From positions 1-32,926 of the IMG/VR virus record IMGVR_UViG_3300036832_001087: a DNA stretch of 32,926 bases, one strand, 5' to 3'. The DNA comes from a virus. Position 1 is the first letter of the stretch. Each line of letters begins with the position of its first letter. This document shows, one piece after another, positions 4,125-32,926 of this stretch. The position numbers and the translations under genes were made by a program. The notes beneath the pieces are model-generated. The model saw nothing but the letters and a program-made list of their open reading frames with translations. It was not told the origin of the DNA and ran no database searches.

Positions 4125-4391
4125 CTAGATTGGGGGTGGCTGTGGACTGGCCTCGAAATGGCGGCACGCGATCGCGTCGTGCGGGATCGGCGGCGGGTCT
4201 TTCAGGTGCTGCAGCGCCTTCCGGCAACGCGCCTCCTTCAAGAGCCCGATCCGATTCCGTTCGCCCCTCTGATTCGCCCATGAACTGCACTCCCTGCACG
4301 TGTGACTGGTGTCGACGGCAAAATGCGCTTGGCCGGGCCTGGTTGCAATATGGCTGAGATTCTCTGCGGTCAGGTGTTCGCTGCCGACCAT
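4125..4391 (-). CDS. Small four-cysteine protein, probably zinc-binding
   Basis: An 88-residue protein with Cys at 32, 35, 56 and 76 (CREC, then ARCRK, then ACRHFE). Four well-spaced Cys suggest one bound zinc ion. The N-terminus contains an IATRPGQAHFA segment. I recall a similar layout (GQAHFA, CxxCxxW, CRK, ACRxFE) in small conserved proteins of rhizobial phages, which supports this frame; that is memory, not a search. The ATG at 4391 lies 3 bases after the methyltransferase stop codon, so it probably belongs to the same transcript. The biochemical role is unknown. Confidence 0.65.
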   Translation of the reverse strand: MVGSEHLTAENLSHIATRPGQAHFAVDTSHTCRECSSWANQRGERNRIGLLKEARCRKALQHLKDPPPIPHDAIACRHFEASPQPPPI

Positions 4392-4394
4392 GGC

Positions 4395-5423
4395 TCAACA
4401 CTCGAGATAGGCTTTGATGAACTCGGCCGCGAGCAACGGGACCACGGCGTTGCCGTAGCCGCGCAGACGTCCCACTCTGGCGGTAGTCCCATTAACCAAC
4501 AAACGAATTCCGGGTTTAACCCGCCGGGCCTTGCCGTCGGCGCCGACGATCCATCCGTGGTCGCGCCATGGATTTGAGTTTGAATTTCCAGCGAGCCGCT
4601 GCCTAAGCCCTTCCCTGGATATTTCTCGTACTCGGTCGCCTTGCGCCGGTTCCAACTCTCCAGCGACTCCGCGTGACCCGTATTCGGCGTCGCCCACAGC
4701 GCCATGTCCGCCGCATCGAGCAGCGTTGTTCCTGAATGGTGCCGACTGTCGGGATTGTAGCGCATCGCCGTGGCGTTGCGAGTGTTGACGCTGTCCGTCA
4801 CCACTGGCGTTGGCCACATCGAAAGTTTCGCCACATGCCGCAGATCGACCTGACGCTTGCCGGTCGGTGTCTGTCCCGTCGCCGTCATCTGCCCATCCGC
4901 GCGCGATCGACCTCCGTTCGGCGTGTTCGGCGTCGGCCACAAACCACAGCCGGTTCCTTCTGTGCGGCGCCCCGACACTGCAAGCCGGCAATATTGCCGC
5001 CCCGACGGCGTAGCCGATTCCTTCCATGTCAGAATACACTCCATCGAGCCAGTGCGTGCCAGCCGCACGCGCAACCTGCTCGCCAAAGACGACTGCAGGG
5101 CGGCGCTGGCGGATGAGACGGAACCAGGCGGGCCAGAGATGACGCGGGTCGGCCGCGCCTTGCCGCTTACCGGCGACGCTCTCGCCCTGGCAGGGGCAGG
5201 AGCCGGTCCAGACCGGGCCGCGCCAATCAGCGAGAGAAAGCGCGCGATCCCAGCCGCCAAGGCCGGCGAAGAAATGACAGCGGGTGAAGCCCTCGAGATC
5301 GCTTGCGTCAACCTCGGTGATCGAGCGATCGTCGACGATTCCATCCGCAATCAGCCCCTCTCTGATCAGATTGCGCAGCCATTGCGCTGCAAACGGATCA
5401 TTCTCGTTGTAGTAGCTAGACAA
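4395..5423 (-). CDS. C5-cytosine DNA methyltransferase (phage type)
   Basis: This enzyme transfers a methyl group from S-adenosylmethionine to C5 of cytosine. Motif I is FFAGLGGWDRAL (residues 51-62). The catalytic loop is SCPCQGESVAGK with Cys78, where the usual PCQPFS is replaced by PCQGES. Motif VI is GEQV (114-117), motif VIII is GAPHRRNRLWFVADA (151-165), and motif X is GYGNAVVPLLAAEFI near the C-terminus. The variable region between VIII and X contains repeated ADA, VAN and GDA-type segments. No in-frame ATG exists before residue 133, so translation probably starts at TTG 5423 after a G-rich stretch, overlapping the end of the large-terminase gene by 8 bases. Its place in the packaging operon suggests the phage methylates its own DNA, probably against host restriction; no partner endonuclease is visible. 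Confidence 0.88.
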   Translation of the reverse strand: MSSYYNENDPFAAQWLRNLIREGLIADGIVDDRSITEVDASDLEGFTRCHFFAGLGGWDRALSLADWRGPVWTGSCPCQGESVAGKRQGAADPRHLWPAWFRLIRQRRPAVVFGEQVARAAGTHWLDGVYSDMEGIGYAVGAAILPACSVGAPHRRNRLWFVADAEHAERRSIARGWADDGDGTDTDRQASGRSAACGETFDVANASGDGQRQHSQRHGDALQSRQSAPFRNNAARCGGHGAVGDAEYGSRGVAGELEPAQGDRVREISREGLRQRLAGNSNSNPWRDHGWIVGADGKARRVKPGIRLLVNGTTARVGRLRGYGNAVVPLLAAEFIKAYLEC

Positions 5424-17502: not shown

Positions 17503-17997
17503 ATGCCGAGAATCAAAGGTGGTTGGCTAGAATTCGACATGAGTAACGAACGCCCCGGCCAAGGACTTCCTGGCGGCAATCGTCCGGTCGATCCGGATTG
17601 GGGGATCGATGAGGGTGGCCGTCCTGATCAAGGATTGCCTCCGGGCAGCGGTCGCCCCGACAATAGTTTGCCGGAGCCGCCTCCTGGCGTCTGGCCGGGC
17701 CCGTCGCCGTCCCATCCGATCGTTCCTGTTCCGCCAGAAGAGCCGACAGAGCCCGGCACGATCTGGCCTCCAGCACCTCCCGGCGCGACCGGCAAGTTTT
17801 GGGTGGTGGCGGGGATCCCTGGCCACGGCTGGCGTTATGTCTGCATCGACGTCAGCTTGAGGCCTGACCAGGGCTTGCCGGGGCATCCTGATCAGGGTCT
17901 GCCTCCTGGGCCTGACCAGGGCCTGCCTCCGCACCCCAGCCAGCCTATCGCGCCTGGGGGGCAGCCGCAGCCTAAGCCGGGACAGATGCGGCGCTGA
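17503..17997 (+). CDS. Pro/Gly-rich protein with PDQGLP repeats
   Basis: A 164-residue protein with repeated units: RPGQGLPGG, RPDQGLPPG, RPDNSLPEP, then after a middle domain RPDQGLPGH, PDQGLPPGP and PDQGLPPHP. The middle contains a short folded-looking region, GKFWVVAGIPGHGWRYVCID. I recall similar repeat proteins, with the same WVVAGIPG and PDQGLP/PDNSLP units, encoded in many environmental podophages, always of unknown function. AAGGAG precedes the ATG. The disordered repeats flanking a small aromatic domain suggest a virion or surface-binding protein, but nothing in the sequence proves it. It opens a run of low-complexity proteins up to 20055. Confidence 0.7.
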   Translation: MPRIKGGWLEFDMSNERPGQGLPGGNRPVDPDWGIDEGGRPDQGLPPGSGRPDNSLPEPPPGVWPGPSPSHPIVPVPPEEPTEPGTIWPPAPPGATGKFWVVAGIPGHGWRYVCIDVSLRPDQGLPGHPDQGLPPGPDQGLPPHPSQPIAPGGQPQPKPGQMRR

Positions 17998-19485: not shown

Positions 19486-20055
19486 ATGAGCTACATGATC
19501 AACGACTTCACTCAGCAAGTGACGCTCGTTTACATGAGCAACAAATGGGATCCGAACCGGCTTGCCATCGCCAACGCGCTAGCCGCCGCGCTCAATCCCG
19601 ATCCGACTCGATATTCGGTCGAACTGCAGGCACCAGTTCCGGGACTGATGCCCGGCAACGCCGCCAATGGCCCGATGCTCAACGACCTCTTGCGCGTCGT
19701 CAACCGCGGCAAGGCGGGCAACCTCACGCCGCTAGCGATGTCGAATGCGATCACCGCGGCGTTGAGCACGATCAACCCGCCGGCCAACACCACGGCACCT
19801 GCAGCGACGGCGACTTCATTGTCGGTGGCGACGCCCGGCGTCTGCTCGGTCACCAACGGCAATTGGAACTACGCGCCGACAAGTTACACTTATCAGTGGT
19901 ATCGAGGCGGGACGTTGATTGCAGGACAGATGGGGACAAGCTACACCCTGGTCGTCGCCGACGAAGGCTTTATGATCACCTGTCGCGTCACGGCCGAAAA
20001 TGCCGCAGGAGCGACGACCATCACCTCGAATGCGCTCGGCCCGGTGACGGCGTGA
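19486..20055 (+). CDS. Protein with C-terminal Ig-like domain
   Basis: A 189-residue protein. The first 100 residues are mixed helix and loop. Residues 105-189 have the pattern of a bacterial/phage immunoglobulin-like domain: YTYQWYRGGTLIAGQMGTSY, then LVVADEGFMITCRVTAENAA and a final TSNALGPVTA strand, with the tryptophan and Cys in the expected places. Such domains sit on capsid or tail surfaces in many phages and bind carbohydrates weakly. The stop overlaps the next gene's ATG. A virion-surface role is inferred from the domain type. Confidence 0.75.
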   Translation: MSYMINDFTQQVTLVYMSNKWDPNRLAIANALAAALNPDPTRYSVELQAPVPGLMPGNAANGPMLNDLLRVVNRGKAGNLTPLAMSNAITAALSTINPPANTTAPAATATSLSVATPGVCSVTNGNWNYAPTSYTYQWYRGGTLIAGQMGTSYTLVVADEGFMITCRVTAENAAGATTITSNALGPVTA

Positions 20056-20255
20056 TGCCCGATGAGCGCATGCTTCTCAACGACGTCGTCAAATATTTGA
20101 TGAAGACGACCGGTCGAACGCGTCGCCAGGCTGAACGCCTCCTCATCGCAAAGTTGAAGTCGGGCGAGGTTAAAGCAGAAGGCATTCCAGCCGGCGGCGT
20201 CGATCCGGAGCCGATCCCAACGAAAGTTTTCCAATCTATTCCGTGGGAGAACTGA
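20055..20255 (+). CDS. Small protein, paralogue of the gene at 25734
   Basis: A 66-residue protein with MKTTGRTRRQAERLLIAKLK followed by SGEVKAEGIPAGGVDPEPIP and KVFQSIP. The gene at 25734 has the same string with substitutions (MKATGRNRRQATSMLVQALK, then HPEPISPEVFQEILP), so these are paralogues. The first part could be a helix-turn-helix of the kind found in small excisionase-like or MerR-type proteins (GRTRRQAERLL recognition-helix pattern). Function not established. Its ATG overlaps the stop of the Ig-like gene in TGATG. Confidence 0.7.
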   Translation: MPDERMLLNDVVKYLMKTTGRTRRQAERLLIAKLKSGEVKAEGIPAGGVDPEPIPTKVFQSIPWEN

Positions 20256-25737: not shown

Positions 25738-25943
25738 GCTCGGAAGACAAATACGAAGACTTCGAACTTTCAATCGAGCGCATCATGAAAGCCACTGGTC
25801 GCAACCGGCGGCAGGCTACCAGCATGCTCGTGCAGGCGTTGAAATCCGGCAAAGTCAGGGCGCGTGGCACGCTGCCGGGTAAGGATCATCCGGAGCCGAT
25901 TTCGCCTGAAGTTTTTCAAGAAATCCTACCGTCCGAACATTGA
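25734..25943 (+). CDS. Small protein, paralogue of the gene at 20055
   Basis: A 69-residue protein, MSSEDKYEDFELSIERIMKA then GRNRRQATSMLVQALKSGKV and HPEPISPEVFQEILP. It shares the GRxRRQA...LKSG(E/K)V...PEPI...VFQ string with the gene at 20055. I chose GTG 25734 because GGAGAG lies 4 bases ahead and the GTGA overlaps the previous stop; ATG 25722 is the alternative. The basic, Arg-rich helix may contact DNA. Role unknown. Confidence 0.65.
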   Translation: MSSEDKYEDFELSIERIMKATGRNRRQATSMLVQALKSGKVRARGTLPGKDHPEPISPEVFQEILPSEH

Positions 25944-25945
25944 GC

Positions 25946-27376
25946 ATGAGCACCCTCGATCCGGTCCAGATTGCCGCGTTGGATTTCGCTCGCGACAAGC
26001 GCGGCGTCGGTTGGTTCTTAGAACAAGGGCTTGGCAAGACCCTGTGCGCGCTAGCTGAGTTCTCTTGGTACAGCAACCTCGGCGAGGCGGATCGGATGGT
26101 GATCGTCTGTCCAAACAGTTTCAAGCGAGGCTGGATTGACGAAATCGAGAAGCACGGTTTCGATTTCGATTGGCATATTTTCAGATCGCTAAAGAAGGCG
26201 GACGCGGCGAAATTCATCAATGTCCGCCAGCGCCACCGGCCGCCGGTGTTCGTCCTGAATTACGAAGCGTTGCGGATGCCCAACGTGCTCAAGGCGATGT
26301 GCGCCTGGGCGGCGCGCGGCAAGACCTATTTCGCCATCGATGAATCGATCCAGATCAAGAGCAACCGCTCGGCTCAAACCAAGGCGGTGCATAAACTCGC
26401 GCCGCTCTGCGCCTGGGTGAGGCTCTTGACCGGCCGGCCGCAGACGCAAGGGCCGCATGACCTGTGGGGCCAATTGCGCGCCATTGGCCTCGTGCCCGAG
26501 ATGAACTTCTACGCCTTCCGCGGCCATTTTTGCCAGATGGGCGGCTGGATGAACAAGGAAGTGGTCAGGGCCAGGAATACCGAGGACCTAGCTCGATTGA
26601 TGGCGCCCTTCGTCTTCCAGGCGAAGAAGTCCGCCTGGTTGCCGGAGCTCCCGCGCAAGGATTACACCATCCGCGACTATGCGATGTCGCCGAGGCAGAC
26701 AGCGCAATATGCGTCGATGGAAGAAGACTTTCTACTCGAGATCGAACGCGGAGACACCGTCACAGTAGATGTCGCGATCGCTAAATACGCGAAGCTGGCC
26801 CAAATCCAGACGGGTTTCATATATGACGAGACTGGCGCCGTTCATCAGCTTGTCGATAATTCCGAGAATCCCCGGCTCAATCTCCTTCGCCAGCTTTTGG
26901 AAGAAGAGGTCGAGGGCAAGGTTTGCATCGTCTATCGGCATCGGGCGGTACTCGACATGCTGGCCAAGACCATGCGCCCATATAATGCGGCCTGGATCAT
27001 GGGCCGGATGAAACCGGAGGATATCGAGGACCAGAAACGACGCTTCAATGAAGAGCCTTCTTGTCGGATCATCTTCCTGCAAGCCGAAGCTTCAAAATAC
27101 GGCCATACCTTATTGGGCGGACCAGGCCCCGACGATCTCTGTCGGACAATGATCTTTTTCGAAAACAGCTACTCGGCCGACACGCGCGATCAGATCGAGG
27201 ATCGAATTCATCGCCGCGGCCAGACCGGTGAGCGGGTGCTCTATATCGACCTGTCGGCTAGCGAGCTTGATCGGCGGATCGTCAAGGCGCTGCAGCGCAA
27301 GGACGAGCTTTACAAGTCAGTGTTTCGCAATCTCAAAGCTGCCTTGCCTTCCGAGAACGAACCGGCGATGAAATAG
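25946..27376 (+). CDS. SNF2-type DNA helicase/translocase
   Basis: A 476-residue superfamily 2 enzyme. Motif I is EQGLGKT (residues 26-32), motif Ia is VIVCPNSFKRGW (52-63), motif II is FAIDESIQIKS with Asp132-Glu133-Ser134, motif III is LLTGRPQTQGPHDLW, and motif VI is DQIEDRIHRRGQTG near the C-terminus. SNF2-type phage enzymes usually remodel or unwind DNA junctions; the usual DEAH box is DES here. Motif II still has both acidic residues, so ATP hydrolysis is expected. I chose ATG 25946; a TTG six bases earlier is a weaker start. It directly follows the small paralogue and ends 2 bases before the tail-fibre gene. Confidence 0.9.
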   Translation: MSTLDPVQIAALDFARDKRGVGWFLEQGLGKTLCALAEFSWYSNLGEADRMVIVCPNSFKRGWIDEIEKHGFDFDWHIFRSLKKADAAKFINVRQRHRPPVFVLNYEALRMPNVLKAMCAWAARGKTYFAIDESIQIKSNRSAQTKAVHKLAPLCAWVRLLTGRPQTQGPHDLWGQLRAIGLVPEMNFYAFRGHFCQMGGWMNKEVVRARNTEDLARLMAPFVFQAKKSAWLPELPRKDYTIRDYAMSPRQTAQYASMEEDFLLEIERGDTVTVDVAIAKYAKLAQIQTGFIYDETGAVHQLVDNSENPRLNLLRQLLEEEVEGKVCIVYRHRAVLDMLAKTMRPYNAAWIMGRMKPEDIEDQKRRFNEEPSCRIIFLQAEASKYGHTLLGGPGPDDLCRTMIFFENSYSADTRDQIEDRIHRRGQTGERVLYIDLSASELDRRIVKALQRKDELYKSVFRNLKAALPSENEPAMK

Positions 27377-27378
27377 AT

Positions 27379-28134
27379 ATGACCGACCTCATCGTTCGCC
27401 AGATCATGGACGACGTCAACCACGACGATCTCGCCACGCCTGGCGACTTCCCTGAGCCGCCGATCACCGGGCTGACCTATGGCCGCGGCGGCGGGACGTG
27501 GTCGCCGGTGCTGCCGCTGCTCTCCAATCAGGTCAATGACGTTCGTGGCCCGATCCTTATCCCGTACGGGACGCAGGGTGTGCCAGCGCTGATGATCGGC
27601 TCTAACGACAGCGGATTTTATCGCCAGAGCACGATCACCTATTTCAGAGCCAGCGGCGCCTTCTGCATGGCCTGGCATCCCAGCGGGGTCCAGTCCTGGG
27701 TGCCCATAAACATGGGCAACCAAAAGATCAGTGCGCTGGCTGACCCGACCGCGTTCGACGACGCGCTTAATGTGCGCACCGCCGACGCTCGCTATGCCGG
27801 CCTCACCAATCCGTGGTTCGACTTCACGCCCGACCCAGGCTGGCTGAACAGCACCGTCCGATTCCGGGTGCTGGACAACGGTAAGAATCTACAGATCGCC
27901 GGCGACATTCAGGCGCCCCTTCCCGCCGGCGCGCGGGCGCGCATGGGCGTGTTGCCGGAAGGCGCGCGGCCGACACGCGCTTGTCGCACTGCGGGCATCT
28001 GCTCGAGCGGGGTGCTATTCGGCTGGGCGATGTTCGAAGTCAGCCCGAGCGGCGAGGTTTGGGTTGTATGGTCGATCGGCAATCCGCCCGACAACGGCGT
28101 CGGTTCAATCAACGCCATCATTCCGATGGACTGA
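27379..28134 (+). CDS. Tail-fibre-like receptor-binding protein
   Basis: A 251-residue protein. Residues 108-140 (VPINMGNQKISALADPTAFD, then DALNVRTADARYA) match the NLGNxKISNLADPxxxxDAVN pattern found at the joints of many phage tail fibres. Upstream is a beta-rich N-terminal region (GPILIPYGTQGVPALMIG). The C-terminal 110 residues, with WLNSTVRFRVLDNGKNLQIA and RVxG-type strands, look like a jelly-roll head that contacts the host. At 251 residues it is short for a whole fibre, so it may be a small fibre tip. It is on the plus strand, apart from the structural genes on the minus strand. Confidence 0.75.
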   Translation: MTDLIVRQIMDDVNHDDLATPGDFPEPPITGLTYGRGGGTWSPVLPLLSNQVNDVRGPILIPYGTQGVPALMIGSNDSGFYRQSTITYFRASGAFCMAWHPSGVQSWVPINMGNQKISALADPTAFDDALNVRTADARYAGLTNPWFDFTPDPGWLNSTVRFRVLDNGKNLQIAGDIQAPLPAGARARMGVLPEGARPTRACRTAGICSSGVLFGWAMFEVSPSGEVWVVWSIGNPPDNGVGSINAIIPMD

Positions 28135-28147
28135 AAAGGAGAGGAAC

Positions 28148-28861
28148 ATGAAATTTATTCTCAGCGCAGCGCTTTTGGCAGCGATCGGCGTGACGCCGGC
28201 GAACGCCACGTTGCAGATCGCCTTCGGCAATGGCGCATCCACGTTCACCTGTCAGGATCAGACGGCCTGCGATTTGGACGGGGCGGCGAAGAATTTGTTG
28301 CTGCTCAACACCTTCGTCGGCGACATCAAAGTGGTCGGCACCTTCGCCGCCTCGACCACCCACCCCGACGAGCTGTCGGTCTCCAATCTCACCATTACCA
28401 ATCTGGGCAGCGGGATCGAGACGCTGTTCATGGCGGTCGGCGACACCAACTTCATCGGGCCGGTCAGCTCAATCCTCGCCTCCGGTTCGGGCACCTTCAA
28501 CAACGACGTCGGCGGCAGCGCATCCGTCTCGTTCTTCGCCTCGCCCACCAACACCCAGCCCGCCGCCAACGCGACCGACCTGCCGGGCGCGATGCTGTTC
28601 ACGACCGGCGAGACGGTCACTTCGGCGCCGACTTCTTTTTCCGGCACCAAGGATTCGCTGTTCTCGGCGCTGGGGCCGTTCTCGATGGCGGAAGGCGCGA
28701 GCTTGACTTTGCTTCCTGGCGCGTCCGTCACTGGCTTCAATGAGTCGATGGCGGCGCAGGCGATCCCCGAGCCGCGCACTTGGGCGATGCTGCTGATCGG
28801 GTTCGGCCTGATGGGGTTCGCCGCGTTCCGGCGTCGACGTACACAGCACTTCGCGCTCTAA
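28148..28861 (+). CDS. PEP-CTERM secreted protein (first of two)
   Basis: A 237-residue exported protein. Residues 1-20 (MKFILSAALLAAIGVTPANA) form a classic signal peptide with a PANA cleavage site. The mature part is Ser/Thr/Asn/Gly-rich and beta-like. The C-terminus (about 206-237) is a PEPxxWA-type CTERM tail: IPEPRTW, then a hydrophobic helix MLLIGFGLMGFAAF, then RRRR. In Alphaproteobacteria exosortase/EpsH-type systems cut after PEP and attach the protein at the envelope. AAAAGGAGAG precedes the ATG, and the same sequence precedes the next gene. The codons are as GC-rich as the neighbours. PEP-CTERM proteins are expected in host genomes, not phages, so this one is unusual. Confidence 0.85.
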   Translation: MKFILSAALLAAIGVTPANATLQIAFGNGASTFTCQDQTACDLDGAAKNLLLLNTFVGDIKVVGTFAASTTHPDELSVSNLTITNLGSGIETLFMAVGDTNFIGPVSSILASGSGTFNNDVGGSASVSFFASPTNTQPAANATDLPGAMLFTTGETVTSAPTSFSGTKDSLFSALGPFSMAEGASLTLLPGASVTGFNESMAAQAIPEPRTWAMLLIGFGLMGFAAFRRRRTQHFAL

Positions 28862-28873
28862 AAGGAGAGATCC

Positions 28874-29569
28874 ATGAACAAGCTATTGATGACTGCAGCG
28901 CTACTGGCGGCGGTCGGCGTGACGCCAGCCCGCGCGGTGACGGCGACCTTCTGCGGCCCTCAGTCTGAGGGCAACGCACCCGCTGGATGCTCGGGGACCA
29001 ATGAAAGCATGGTGTTCCTTGATGCCGCCAAGGACGTTACGCTCGGCTTCGGACAGGTGGGCGGGAACCACGCTGTCCCAACCATGTTCCTTTCATCCGA
29101 TGGCGGCGCATTGAACATGACAATCGATCTTTCCAATGGCTTCGGGACCATCACCCCGGCGCATGGCTTTGTCGATTTTAACGGCTTGGACATCACCATT
29201 CCGGGGTTCACGTTCACCGACATTCTGTTCGACGCGCAATTAACGCCGACTTCCAGCGCGACGGACAATTTCAGCATCAGCGCTTTCTCGGGAGCCCATA
29301 TCCTCGATGGCGTTGGCAATGAAACGGACGCGGCGGACACCGACAAGCAGTTCGCGGCCTTCGCGGTCGGCGGCGCGTTCGACGAGGTCAACATCCAGTC
29401 GACGACCGGCTTCGACGAGATCAAGCATATCGAAATCAGCGGGCTTGCGCCGCTGGCGGCAGTGCCAGAGCCTCGCACTTGGGTTATGATGCTGCTTGGG
29501 TTTGCGAGTCTCGCCTATGCAGCGCGCCGAAGAATCACTCGTCAACGGGATCTTGGCGCTCGCGCTTAG
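28874..29569 (+). CDS. PEP-CTERM secreted protein (second of two)
   Basis: A 231-residue paralogue of the gene just upstream. Residues 1-21 (MNKLLMTAALLAAVGVTPAR onward) nearly repeat the first signal peptide. The body is beta-like (GGALNMTIDLSNGFGTITPA). The tail at about 197-231 is VPEPRTW, MMLLGFASLAYAA, then RRR with a longer basic end. The PEPRTW motif is intact; W is followed by V rather than A. It has the same AAAAGGAGAG ribosome site as its partner. The 3' end overlaps a small membrane ORF by 53 bases in another frame. Likely a tandem duplication followed by divergence of the body. Confidence 0.85.
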   Translation: MNKLLMTAALLAAVGVTPARAVTATFCGPQSEGNAPAGCSGTNESMVFLDAAKDVTLGFGQVGGNHAVPTMFLSSDGGALNMTIDLSNGFGTITPAHGFVDFNGLDITIPGFTFTDILFDAQLTPTSSATDNFSISAFSGAHILDGVGNETDAADTDKQFAAFAVGGAFDEVNIQSTTGFDEIKHIEISGLAPLAAVPEPRTWVMMLLGFASLAYAARRRITRQRDLGARA

Positions 29570-29675
29570 TCTCGTCCTTTGGCGGTTGACCGGCAGCTTT
29601 CTCGGCTGGCTGGTTTTGGCCGCGCCGGGGAGCGCCTTGGTGATTTGGGGCTGGGTTCTGGCGCTGCGGGATTGA
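29517..29675 (+). CDS. Small two-span membrane protein, holin-like candidate
   Basis: A 52-residue protein nested in and extending past the end of the second PEP-CTERM gene. MQRAEESLVNGILALALSLV leads into one hydrophobic span and GSFLGWLVLAAPGSALVIWG forms a second, with a charged tail LRD. Two spans and small size are typical of holins or holin-like regulators. The frame was read by hand and has no stop before 29673. There is no strong Shine-Dalgarno. No endolysin is seen in the window, so lysis function is speculative. It may instead help the PEP-CTERM proteins or be chance. Confidence 0.5.
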   Translation: MQRAEESLVNGILALALSLVLWRLTGSFLGWLVLAAPGSALVIWGWVLALRD

Positions 29676-29847: not shown

Positions 29848-30099
29848 ATGACTTGGTCAATCTGGTGGATAATAGTTCTTCTCACCGCCATTCTTCTTCA
29901 CAATCCCATGTTTGTCTTAGCGATGGCGATCACTGCCGCCGTTTGCCAACTCGTCTTTTTCGTCCCTGATCTCTTTCGGATCTGGTTCGCCTTCGCTAGT
30001 CAGCCGGTCAAGGACGAGCCATGGACAACCAAGCGGACCGTCTGCGCGGTCATCATATTTGGCCCCACAGTGCTACACTTAGTTGGCTGGACCCACTAA
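29848..30099 (+). CDS. Small membrane protein (83 aa), three spans
   Basis: An 83-residue protein with three hydrophobic segments: MTWSIWWIIVLLTAILLHNP, then MFVLAMAITAAVCQLVFFVP, and a C-terminal CAVIIFGPTVLHLVGW. The middle loop after the second span is charged (QPVKDEPWTTKR). AAGGTG lies 7 bases before the ATG, and a promoter sits just upstream. Size and topology fit a holin, but no lysin is visible and a membrane exclusion role is equally possible. Its stop codon overlaps the stop codon of the convergent minus-strand gene (30096-30099). Confidence 0.65.
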   Translation: MTWSIWWIIVLLTAILLHNPMFVLAMAITAAVCQLVFFVPDLFRIWFAFASQPVKDEPWTTKRTVCAVIIFGPTVLHLVGWTH

Positions 30100-31460
30100 A
30101 GCCGCCCGCTGCCGCCAAGCCCGTAGACGCCCTGCCGCGCTTCATTGGCCGTATTGGATAGCCACCCAGGTACGTTTGAGCCGAACGGAAGCGGCTTCCC
30201 TGTCGCGTTGAGATATTGCGCAGCGCGCAGTTTGTTCGCGGTTGGGATGGCCATACCTTTAGACCATAGCATCGGGAAAGCTGCCCCAACTGCGGCACCA
30301 GCTAGATCTCCAGGCATACCTTGCCCGGTTAGCGCCCCCACGGTTCCTCCGATTGCCGCGCCCGCAAGATGCTTGGTGACCGCCTTGCCCACGTTCCCTG
30401 CGACTGTCGGATCTCCCGCTCTCGCCGCGATCGAGCTTAGAATTTCTCTCACGCCTGGCGTTGCATTGTAGAAATCAGGGTTGTCGGCCAAGGCACCCTT
30501 GATCCGGGTAGGCGCAGAAGACGGAGTCGATATCCAATCGCTGATGTCCTGATGCGTCTTTAACTGGCTCGTCGCATTGTTGGCGGCATCGGCGATCGCC
30601 TTGTTGGAAGGGCCTAATGCGGTGTCGAGTGCGTCCGAATAAGCTCCAGCGACCGGATTGTCGGCGGGCGCGCGCTTCGCGTTCTGCAGGGCCGCTTTCC
30701 ACTTAGCGACGTCGTCGACGCTGAAATTATTGGCCTGAGAGGCGTTTTTGATCTGATTGACCCGGCTCTGCATGGTGTCGCTCATCGCCCCCTGCGCACC
30801 TGGGCTGACCCGCGTATTGTTGACTGCCCCCTTGACTGCATTGATGTCGACCGGCGTGTTCTCCGCGACGTCCCAGGCCGACTTGTTTTTGGCCAGCAGG
30901 TCCGCTTCCTGTTGCGCCGAGGATGGTTTCACGTTCGAGCCTGGGCCCGTGACCGCGCCAGTCACACCGCCGATCAGCATGCTTTTCCCGACGTCGCTGG
31001 CGCTGCCGCCGTGGCCTGCTGTTCCGGCGCCAGCGAGCGCGCTCTGCTCAGTCCCGCCCCCGATTATGCGCGCGAGCAGATCTCCGGTGGTCGGCGCAAC
31101 CTTGCCGGCGATCGCCCGCCCGACGCCGACCGCCTCTGTGCCCGCGCCTAAGCCCGCCATGCCGAGCGCCTCCCCGGCGCCCTGATAGGGCGTGCCCTGG
31201 AGCCGCTTCTGCGCGCCCGCGACATCGACGGCGTTGCCGAGGAACGGCGCCTGATCGGCCGCCACCCGGCCGACATCGGCGACGTCTTGAACTTGCTGGC
31301 CGATGCTCTTGGGCGGGTCGCGCTGCTTGTAGCCGAACATGGCGGCGAATGGGCCCAACTGGTTTTCAATGGTGAAATAGCCCGGCGGGGTGTCGCTGGC
31401 GTTGCTGGAGGACTGCGCTGGAGCCCCGCCAACCGGAGTCGAAAGATCCTGCCAGCCCAT
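30096..31460 (-). CDS. Internal virion/ejection protein candidate (454 aa)
   Basis: A 454-residue protein starting MGWQDLSTPVGGAPAQSSSN. The first 200 residues are Ala/Gly/Gln-rich with a glycine-zipper-like stretch (MLIGGVTGAVTGPGSNV). The C-terminal part has another, HLAGAAIGGTVGALTGQ, followed by helices. Such Gly/Ala-rich helical segments in a protein of this size, located next to a very large helical gene, fit podoviral internal virion proteins that form a channel for DNA ejection. The start at ATG 31460 has GAGGAAC before it; upstream in-frame residues lack a better start. It begins 1 base after the stop of the larger gene upstream. Inference only; no named family confirmed. Confidence 0.55.
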   Translation of the reverse strand: MGWQDLSTPVGGAPAQSSSNASDTPPGYFTIENQLGPFAAMFGYKQRDPPKSIGQQVQDVADVGRVAADQAPFLGNAVDVAGAQKRLQGTPYQGAGEALGMAGLGAGTEAVGVGRAIAGKVAPTTGDLLARIIGGGTEQSALAGAGTAGHGGSASDVGKSMLIGGVTGAVTGPGSNVKPSSAQQEADLLAKNKSAWDVAENTPVDINAVKGAVNNTRVSPGAQGAMSDTMQSRVNQIKNASQANNFSVDDVAKWKAALQNAKRAPADNPVAGAYSDALDTALGPSNKAIADAANNATSQLKTHQDISDWISTPSSAPTRIKGALADNPDFYNATPGVREILSSIAARAGDPTVAGNVGKAVTKHLAGAAIGGTVGALTGQGMPGDLAGAAVGAAFPMLWSKGMAIPTANKLRAAQYLNATGKPLPFGSNVPGWLSNTANEARQGVYGLGGSGRL

Positions 31461-31461
31461 T

Positions 31462-32926
31462 TCAGTTCCTCGTATGAATCTTGCCGTCCGGACCGCGGAA
31501 CTTGGTTCCAGTCGGAAGGGACTCAACCGCCCTATCGGCGTCCGGACCGCTCATCTTACTGAAATCCGGCACGCTCTCCACCGTCGCGCCATTATAGAGC
31601 GGGCTGTTGTGGTCAAGATAATCCCCAGTGACCCGATCGGCATATTCGGCCGGAACTATGCCGCCCGCCGCCGCGACAGCGTTGGCGTGCGACAGTTCGA
31701 TCTTCGTCTTGAGATCCAGAAGCGCCTGCTTGATGGCGGTCTGGTCGGACGTCTGACTGAAGAGCGGCCCCGCAGCCGCGCCAGCAATGGTGTTGAACTC
31801 CCGCTGAGTGCGGATGTTCTTCATTCCCTTGAGCCCCTCACCAGATAGCTGGTTCTGCAGCTGACCGAGCGCGACTTTCATATTGAGAGCGTTCTGATCG
31901 ATACCCCCGACGCCCGTCGCCCCGATGATCTCGCCAAGTGAATTGGTCGTGAATGCGCTCGGCGTTCGAACCGCCATCGTCGTGGCGTCGAGATTGGCGA
32001 GCAGTTTGTCGATATTGGTGCTGATCGGCAGAGTGCTCTTCTCGACGTCGGCGAGGTTCGCCTTCGCCCCGATCTTGTCAGTCGCCGCGACCGCAGCGGC
32101 CTTGGTCGCCTCGGCCTTGTCGGCGGCGTAGCCGGTCAGCGTCGTCCAGTTGGGGTGTTCGGCATACATCTGCTCCGGTGTGCCGCCAGGGTGCTGGTTC
32201 TGCCACATCCGGATTTCGTTGCGCAGGTCCTTCTCGACCGGCGTCTGGCCGCCAACAACGCCGCTAAACATGTTCGACTTATAGTCCGCGACGTCCTGTT
32301 GCTGCTCCGCTGTCCATTTCGCCGGGTTGGGATCGTAGCCCTTCGACTGCGCATAGGCGGTTGCCGCGGCGCCAACGTTCTTCACCGCTTCGGTGGGCTC
32401 CAGGCTCCTCATGTGCGAGCTGACCAAATCTTGCATCGCCGCCGGGTTTTTCGACAGCCATTGCAATTGCTGCGGCGTCATGCCGGGGAACATCGCCGCC
32501 ATGCCGGCCGCGCCGGCCTGGAATTGCGCCGCGTTGTTCTGCGCCGTCTGTTCGGCGGTGATCTTCTCGATTTCCCCAAGCGCCCTCAGACGATCGTCGC
32601 CCGGGCCCATCTGCGCGAGCGCCGCCTGCTTGCTCGCCTGCTGCTGCGCGGTGCCGAAGCCCGCGGCGATGCCCTGAATGTTGCGATTGAGATCGTTGGA
32701 GATCGCATCCTGCTGATGCACCTTGAGCAGAAGCGCAATGGTGTTGGCGTTCTGCGGATCTGGGGCGTAGGTCTGGGCCTGCGCCTGTCCAGGGGCTGGG
32801 GCTGCGGGACCCGCCGAGGGAGCTCCGGGGTTCGGGTTGGGGGTGCCCTGTCCGGCGAGTGCGCGCGCCAGCTGACCATTGAGATCACCGCCGATCGCAT
32901 CCGTGAGGAGACCGCCGATGCCGACG
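31462..32926 (-). CDS. Large internal virion protein candidate, 5' end outside window
   Basis: The frame is open from the right edge to a stop at 31462, giving 487 residues plus an unseen N-terminus. It starts in the window with VGIGGLLTDAIGGDLNGQLA, then a Pro/Ala/Gln-rich segment (TPNPNPGAPSAGPAAPAPGQ), then long Ala/Gln-rich helices (AGFGTAQQQASKQAALAQMG) and helical sequence with few Cys or Trp. The last part (TKFRGPDGKIHTRN) is basic. The composition and the position directly upstream of a second glycine-zipper protein suggest a coiled-coil virion or ejection protein. I do not recognise the exact family. Confidence 0.55.
   Translation of the reverse strand, partial: VGIGGLLTDAIGGDLNGQLARALAGQGTPNPNPGAPSAGPAAPAPGQAQAQTYAPDPQNANTIALLLKVHQQDAISNDLNRNIQGIAAGFGTAQQQASKQAALAQMGPGDDRLRALGEIEKITAEQTAQNNAAQFQAGAAGMAAMFPGMTPQQLQWLSKNPAAMQDLVSSHMRSLEPTEAVKNVGAAATAYAQSKGYDPNPAKWTAEQQQDVADYKSNMFSGVVGGQTPVEKDLRNEIRMWQNQHPGGTPEQMYAEHPNWTTLTGYAADKAEATKAAAVAATDKIGAKANLADVEKSTLPISTNIDKLLANLDATTMAVRTPSAFTTNSLGEIIGATGVGGIDQNALNMKVALGQLQNQLSGEGLKGMKNIRTQREFNTIAGAAAGPLFSQTSDQTAIKQALLDLKTKIELSHANAVAAAGGIVPAEYADRVTGDYLDHNSPLYNGATVESVPDFSKMSGPDADRAVESLPTGTKFRGPDGKIHTRN

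Follow-up and report, generated by a model that had tools for sequence, protein, structure and literature searches.

Phage genes with complete PEP-CTERM tails: putative exosortase substrates in uncultured viruses

Background

Exosortase sorting is widespread in environmental outer-membrane bacteria and is linked to the formation of matrix and flocs. The biology of PEP-CTERM proteins and of their exosortase (EpsH) was described by Haft et al. in 2006, in a text that does not mention phages (PMC1569441). The bacterial substrates (covered by PEPxxWA-CTERM, NF035944, and PF07589) consist of a signal peptide, a body without membrane segments and a C-terminal tail with a PEP motif, a hydrophobic helix and a basic cluster. 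Most of their genes form single-gene operons behind large intergenic regions (PMC1569441).

Phage proteins that the host sorts to its surface are also known. SasX of staphylococcal prophages is a substrate of the LPXTG sortase. Llp of phage T5 is a superinfection-exclusion lipoprotein that blocks a receptor, acting on FhuA (PMC9586334).

Here we analyse two adjacent genes, A and B, in a 32.9-kb virus contig from IMG/VR (the whole of this stretch is called the window below). Their products have all the parts of the bacterial substrates listed above. They differ from these in being encoded by a phage without an exosortase gene, in belonging to ectodomain families that were not found in bacteria, and in being packed into phage operons with a small membrane partner where the bacterial genes mostly stand in single-gene operons. 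By analogy with T5 Llp, A and B would be phage proteins sorted by the host to the cell surface during lytic infection, possibly blocking adsorption, but they lack the lipobox cysteine and use a C-terminal tag. SasX is likewise the product of a phage-borne gene with a C-terminal sorting tag for a host enzyme; there the enzyme is a Gram-positive sortase and the carrier a prophage, whereas here it would be the exosortase of outer-membrane bacteria and the carriers are mostly phages without an integrase. Going by the literature searched, in which we found no paper describing phage PEP-CTERM genes or exosortase substrates and no virus on record as using exosortase sorting, it is the phage-encoded exosortase substrates that are new; PEP-CTERM proteins and phage proteins sorted to the surface by the host are already known. 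A paper on a Microcystis phage was considered as a precedent and set aside, as it concerns host genes.

Results and discussion

The phage and its insertion site

The window is a single linear metagenomic record that includes genes for a portal, terminase, primase and SNF2 helicase, together with other phage genes. Its portal, primase and helicase are 39%, 31% and 43% identical, respectively, to those of Ochrobactrum phage vB_OspP_OH (Wolominvirus, here phage OH), and the portal also matches that of Sinorhizobium phage phiM5. Judged by its genes, it is a real Wolominvirus-like phage. The features at and around the two genes are as follows.

25940-27376, plus strand: SNF2-type helicase, the last gene common to the window and phage OH before the cargo; left insertion border
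27379-28134, plus strand: upstream cargo gene of unclear function, with a weak match to a head-decoration PHROG and partial relatives in a few viral loci
28134-28143, plus strand: ribosome-binding site of gene A, AAAAGGAGAG
28148-28861, plus strand: gene A (237 amino acids), with a predicted signal peptide (about 28148-28207), a predicted beta-sandwich ectodomain (about 28211-28762) and a PEPxxWA-CTERM tail (28763-28858)
28860-28869, plus strand: ribosome-binding site of gene B, AAAAGGAGAG, overlapping the stop codon of A
28874-29569, plus strand: gene B (231 amino acids), with a predicted signal peptide, an ectodomain unrelated to that of A and a PEPxxWA-CTERM tail from 29462
29517-29675, plus strand: small membrane protein (SMP; 52 amino acids, two hydrophobic segments), in a frame different from that of B, whose tail-coding end it overlaps
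30096-31526, minus strand: end of the convergent late operon; right insertion border

Phage OH has the same backbone of primase, helicase, convergent late operon, portal and terminase but is without the cassette. Its helicase ends at 20108 and its late operon at 20234, leaving an empty junction of 126 bp, while the corresponding junction of the window extends from 27376, where the helicase stops, to 30096, where the late gene stops, and is filled by 2.7 kb of cargo, comprising the upstream gene without clear function, genes A and B, and two small ORFs for membrane proteins. In a closer relative of the window (L003), A lies directly behind the helicase at the same junction and is followed by a proline-rich repeat protein. 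This comparison of the window, phage OH and L003 identifies the cassette as accessory cargo at an operon boundary. The upstream gene had been taken for a tail-fibre-like gene, a description that its only match, a weak one to the head-decoration PHROG (E = 0.0014), does not bear out.

Some other genes of the window deserve mention. The proline-rich protein, whose repeat units include HPDQGLPP and PSHPIAPGG and which has no obvious signal peptide, is found at 17503-17997 of the window, 10 kb away from the cassette, and adjoins CTERM genes in several other phages (L003, 10663-11160; L004, 3434-4075; L007, 9067-9825). A protein with an Ig-like C-terminal domain (window 19486-20055; weak matches to PF13895 and to Hoc-like or virion-protein PHROGs) has a relative just upstream of the B gene in L004 (1721-2131). 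A C-5 cytosine methylase-like gene (PF00145; 4395-5423, minus strand) lies between portal and terminase; it belongs to an overlapping frame pair (4370-5350 and 4395-5423) and may be frameshifted.

Two genes with complete sorting tails

The ORFs of A and B, separated by 12 bases, are confirmed as a pair of PEP-CTERM genes. Both exceed the cut-off of NCBIfam NF035944 (35.5 bits for A and 36.0 for B, against 35), the curated cut-off of TIGR02595 and that of Pfam PF07589 (29.9 and 27.1 bits, against 20.7), so rejection of the C-termini by profiles, which the original prediction had named as grounds for abandoning it, did not occur. The same ribosome site, AAAAGGAGAG, precedes both genes as had been claimed. 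By our own hydropathy rule, each protein begins with a signal peptide made up of a hydrophobic N-terminus, a basic residue and an AxA-type end, modelled as a helix in A. Neither has a cysteine at the predicted end of its signal peptide and hence neither has a lipobox of the T5 Llp type. There is no membrane segment between signal and tail: the model of A has only beta strands in this region, and that of B, although poor, likewise has no helix there.

Signal peptides and tails are alike in the two proteins, and this resemblance had suggested a tandem duplication. Profile comparison of the ectodomains (hhalign, probability 0.1%) indicates no relation between them, so the pair is not a plain duplication and the derivation of B from A can be discarded. 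We also considered membership in the flocculation protein family PepA (NF033554) or other named PEP-CTERM families. Both proteins score below the curated cut-offs, and the sub-threshold full-length matches are gone once tail and signal peptide are removed.

The AlphaFold model of A (mean pLDDT 88) comprises an N-terminal helix, a beta ectodomain and a long C-terminal helix that starts at the PEP motif. Its fold neighbours are Bdellovibrio Bd1399 (Z 9.3), a Bacteroides surface glycan-binding protein (8.7), CBM61 (8.2) and the tip, or C-terminal part, of phage tailspike K2-2 (8.1), Z values of 8 to 9 that reflect a common beta-sandwich arrangement and indicate neither a particular ligand nor proof of glycan binding. 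Matches in BFVD are generic tail-fibre and lectin-like sandwiches, and no sequence match to A was found in the PDB. As modelled, the ectodomain of A is a carbohydrate-binding-like beta-sandwich. The 'low-complexity body' of the original prediction is, in A, a well-predicted folded domain under purifying selection.

Relatives in other viruses

Relatives of B were found in eight viral contigs of IMG/VR at the first search and in ten with alignment. A scan for relatives of A with a tail pattern gave 156 candidate loci, of which the best 80 were kept. Clustering of the ectodomains produced families A (54 phage sequences), D (11), B (9) and C (9), as well as singletons, and a fifth family, E, came from a scan with the pattern PEPxTWAM. 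In this last scan, 68 of 78 newly fetched loci contained a complete ORF with signal peptide and CTERM tail, but as some of these may be host genes in provirus flanks the figure is no clean prevalence count. At least five ectodomain families recur, therefore, often in tandem. The A-B pair itself occurs in three other loci (L005, L006 and L014), and in L011 A has a different partner.

Selection by the tail would bias any count of tails, and the scan for A was repeated with patterns from the ectodomain only, which covers its closer subgroup. All 42 complete relatives retrieved in this way carry the tail; 40 pass the strict rule, and the remaining two have the ending PETSTWVMM, which differs from that tail by a single change. 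Ectodomain patterns for B gave the tail in 9/9 complete relatives, and no tail-less relative was seen among the loci examined. Across these sequences the association of tail and ectodomain is far beyond chance. In close pairs of A the ectodomain dN/dS is mostly about 0.06 to 0.3, and in most close pairs the ectodomains are more constrained than the tails.

We found no convincing relative of the ectodomains in the bacterial genomes, phage records and PHROGs searched. A search of 50,697 phage records with members of families A, B, C and D gave no match, and neither A nor B has a family in PHROGs. Bare tails used as queries against the phage collection also gave no match, a result without weight, as the low-complexity filter probably masks such sequences. 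In bacterial genome contigs no relative of B was confirmed, and the best matches listed for A were mostly to the tail only, with two weak whole-length matches in Bradyrhizobium (26-27%); 337 Alphaproteobacteria gave two marginal matches for A and none for B, and eight host-type genomes gave none for A, although an empty result without a positive control is weak evidence of absence. Nor were ectodomain relatives found in the tail fibres of the same phages.

Beside the CTERM genes of most of 12 viral loci, within about 2.5 kb and on either strand, lies a small secreted-looking protein of about 97 amino acids, with the sequence MKSTIIALGAILLSQPTSAHCF... or MRIALALTFMLSAQPALACH... (for example, L066 9385-9711 and L036 2494-2787, with ten others).

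Tail class, exosortase and host

Within each of families A, B and D, two tail classes are found, PEPxxWA and a form without the W (PEPxxLxLLG). Both genes of one phage agree: in adjacent pairs of families A to D and their partners, the tail class is the same in 20/20 (17 W/W and three non-W/non-W), with a chance of about 1 in 1,140 if the pairs are independent, a figure that the relatedness of the phages weakens. This count leaves out the pairs of L249 and L273 and the mixed-class pairs of L258 and L269. The two mixed pairs each join a tail to a false positive of the tail rule and fall in none of the five families. From this agreement we infer that the tails follow the exosortase of the host.

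Between the W and the basic cluster, the spacing is 15 in 71/96 phage tails and 80/84 Rhizobiales tails, and 14 in 15/18 Sphingomonadales tails and in B of the window, the bacterial tails being a sample drawn by similarity to the window tail and not at random. The nearest isolate phages infect Ochrobactrum and Sinorhizobium. Taken together, tail spacing and nearest isolates point to Rhizobiales hosts for most of these phages, as far as such sequence features can tell.

No exosortase was found in 35 virus records, many of which are incomplete, while each of eight bacterial (host-type) genomes with such tails has one. The phage must therefore rely on the host exosortase, if the tail works as a tail. 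A tyrosine integrase is present in only 3/35 records, and the genes thus probably act within lytic infection.

A small membrane protein beside the CTERM genes

Two small membrane genes had been noted downstream of the pair. The first, SMP (ATG at 29517), is conserved in other phages; the second is not. With a profile seeded from four copies of SMP, 34 occurrences were detected among the fetched loci, on a smaller number of contigs because certain loci overlap. In a search that covered loci around CTERM genes only, all 34 are on the strand of the CTERM gene and within 0.8 kb of it, 31 being directly downstream. SMP adjoins members of all five families, and a search of 1.4 Mb surrounding the PEP-CTERM genes of bacteria did not find it. 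Its position varies in a few loci: in L052 (6276-6554 and 5650-7264) it lies between two CTERM genes instead of following the two, and in L020 and L222 it is upstream. SMP lacks known relatives. When ten SMP sequences were compared with PHROGs, none gave a match below E = 0.05 and no holin PHROG was found, holins being too diverse for this to exclude one. SMP may take part in sorting as a partner protein, or it may be a small protein for lysis.

Proposed role and alternatives

We consider A and B very probably to be phage-encoded exosortase substrates. Display through the host exosortase, as originally proposed, is still the most economical reading of phage genes with complete PEP-CTERM tails. 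The signal peptide would send the protein through Sec, and the C-terminal helix and basic cluster would retain it in the inner membrane. The host exosortase would then recognise the PEP motif and cleave there, and the ectodomain would be passed to the outer surface or to the host exopolysaccharide. SMP would probably be a dedicated partner of the exosortase step or of its timing. That such substrates also have some role at the surface or in the matrix is a reading we hold with rather less assurance, though we lean towards it. For the purpose of A and B, the carbohydrate-binding-like sandwich of A makes masking or remodelling of surface glycans our best guess, a tentative one that we would not be surprised to see replaced: the displayed domain would most likely bind surface or matrix polysaccharide and mask or remodel it, so that further phages could not adsorb and released progeny would not be trapped on the dying cell and on debris from it. 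A block of superinfection is compatible with the glycan-binding-like fold modelled for A. Cleavage, display, glycan binding and exclusion by A and B are steps that we infer.

Several alternatives deserve consideration. SMP, short and with two hydrophobic segments, may be holin-like, and the genes could form a lysis cassette in which the CTERM proteins assist an endolysin in opening or weakening the outer envelope and the matrix when the cell lyses. In nine of the 10 distinct loci that bear an M15 endolysin, this gene is within 1.2 kb of a CTERM gene, in orders such as A - C - SMP - endolysin (L037) and endolysin - A - SMP (L017), and such adjacency in several phages fits a role at the time of lysis as well as, or better than, masking. 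However, most loci have no M15 endolysin, and none was detected near the genes of the window or of L003, which lie behind the helicase as part of the replication operon. In addition, SMP is without a holin PHROG, and folded, conserved ectodomains need not belong to lysis. We regard a lysis cassette as unlikely overall. Position behind the helicase suggests early or middle expression in the window, and position next to the endolysin suggests lysis timing in those other phages. About equally unlikely, in our view, is that the displayed proteins alter biofilm or floc formation by infected cells or lysogens, holding or spreading phage and host. A link of bacterial PEP-CTERM proteins to exopolysaccharide and to the formation of flocs is on record (PMC1569441, PMC9850573) and the glycan-binding-like fold of A would suit this role, but the ectodomains have no sequence relation to floc proteins and, with an integrase in so few records, an advantage to lysogens cannot account for the genes in general.

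The complete tails, their apparent match to the host in class and the presence of two substrates per phage would also be expected of a decoy that floods the host exosortase and halts the sorting of the host's own surface proteins. A pure decoy needs no ectodomain, whereas here there are distinct conserved families, under tighter constraint than the tails in the majority of close pairs, and we think this improbable. Scarcely credible is that the genes are a host fragment joined in error, or that they encode a virion protein that merely resembles a CTERM protein. The window is indeed one metagenomic record, but the genes recur in phage contexts on many contigs of different samples, A stands at the same junction in L003, and the ectodomains lack a convincing bacterial relative. 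On the strength of the independent contigs and of L003 we reject misassembly and host contamination, and the joining error that the original prediction had asked to be checked is very unlikely. A virion protein would be at odds with the signal peptide, as virions are assembled in the cytoplasm.

Returning to exosortase substrates, their occurrence in dozens of uncultured viruses of IMG/VR, often in pairs and in the company of the tiny membrane protein, suggests that phages commonly borrow host exosortase sorting to remodel the surface of the infected cell. The fullest form of this proposal is a widespread module in which one or two exosortase substrates, drawn from several phage-only ectodomain families, and the dedicated partner SMP commandeer the host exosortase during lytic infection and bring phage proteins to the cell surface or matrix, the tails of the substrates being adapted to the exosortase type of the host; our opinion on it is evenly divided. 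If phages do this routinely, the host type of uncultured phages could be read from the sorting tag, and surface modification by sorted phage proteins would reach beyond lipoproteins and the Gram-positive sortase. The genes would also provide small single-domain test proteins, and in SMP a candidate partner, for asking what surface proteins delivered by exosortase do.

Three further PEPxTWAM matches (L186, L214 and L240), with CTERM genes that fit none of the five families, are in IMG/VR records that look, from the format of their numbers, like isolate genomes and not metagenomes, and these may lead to named hosts.
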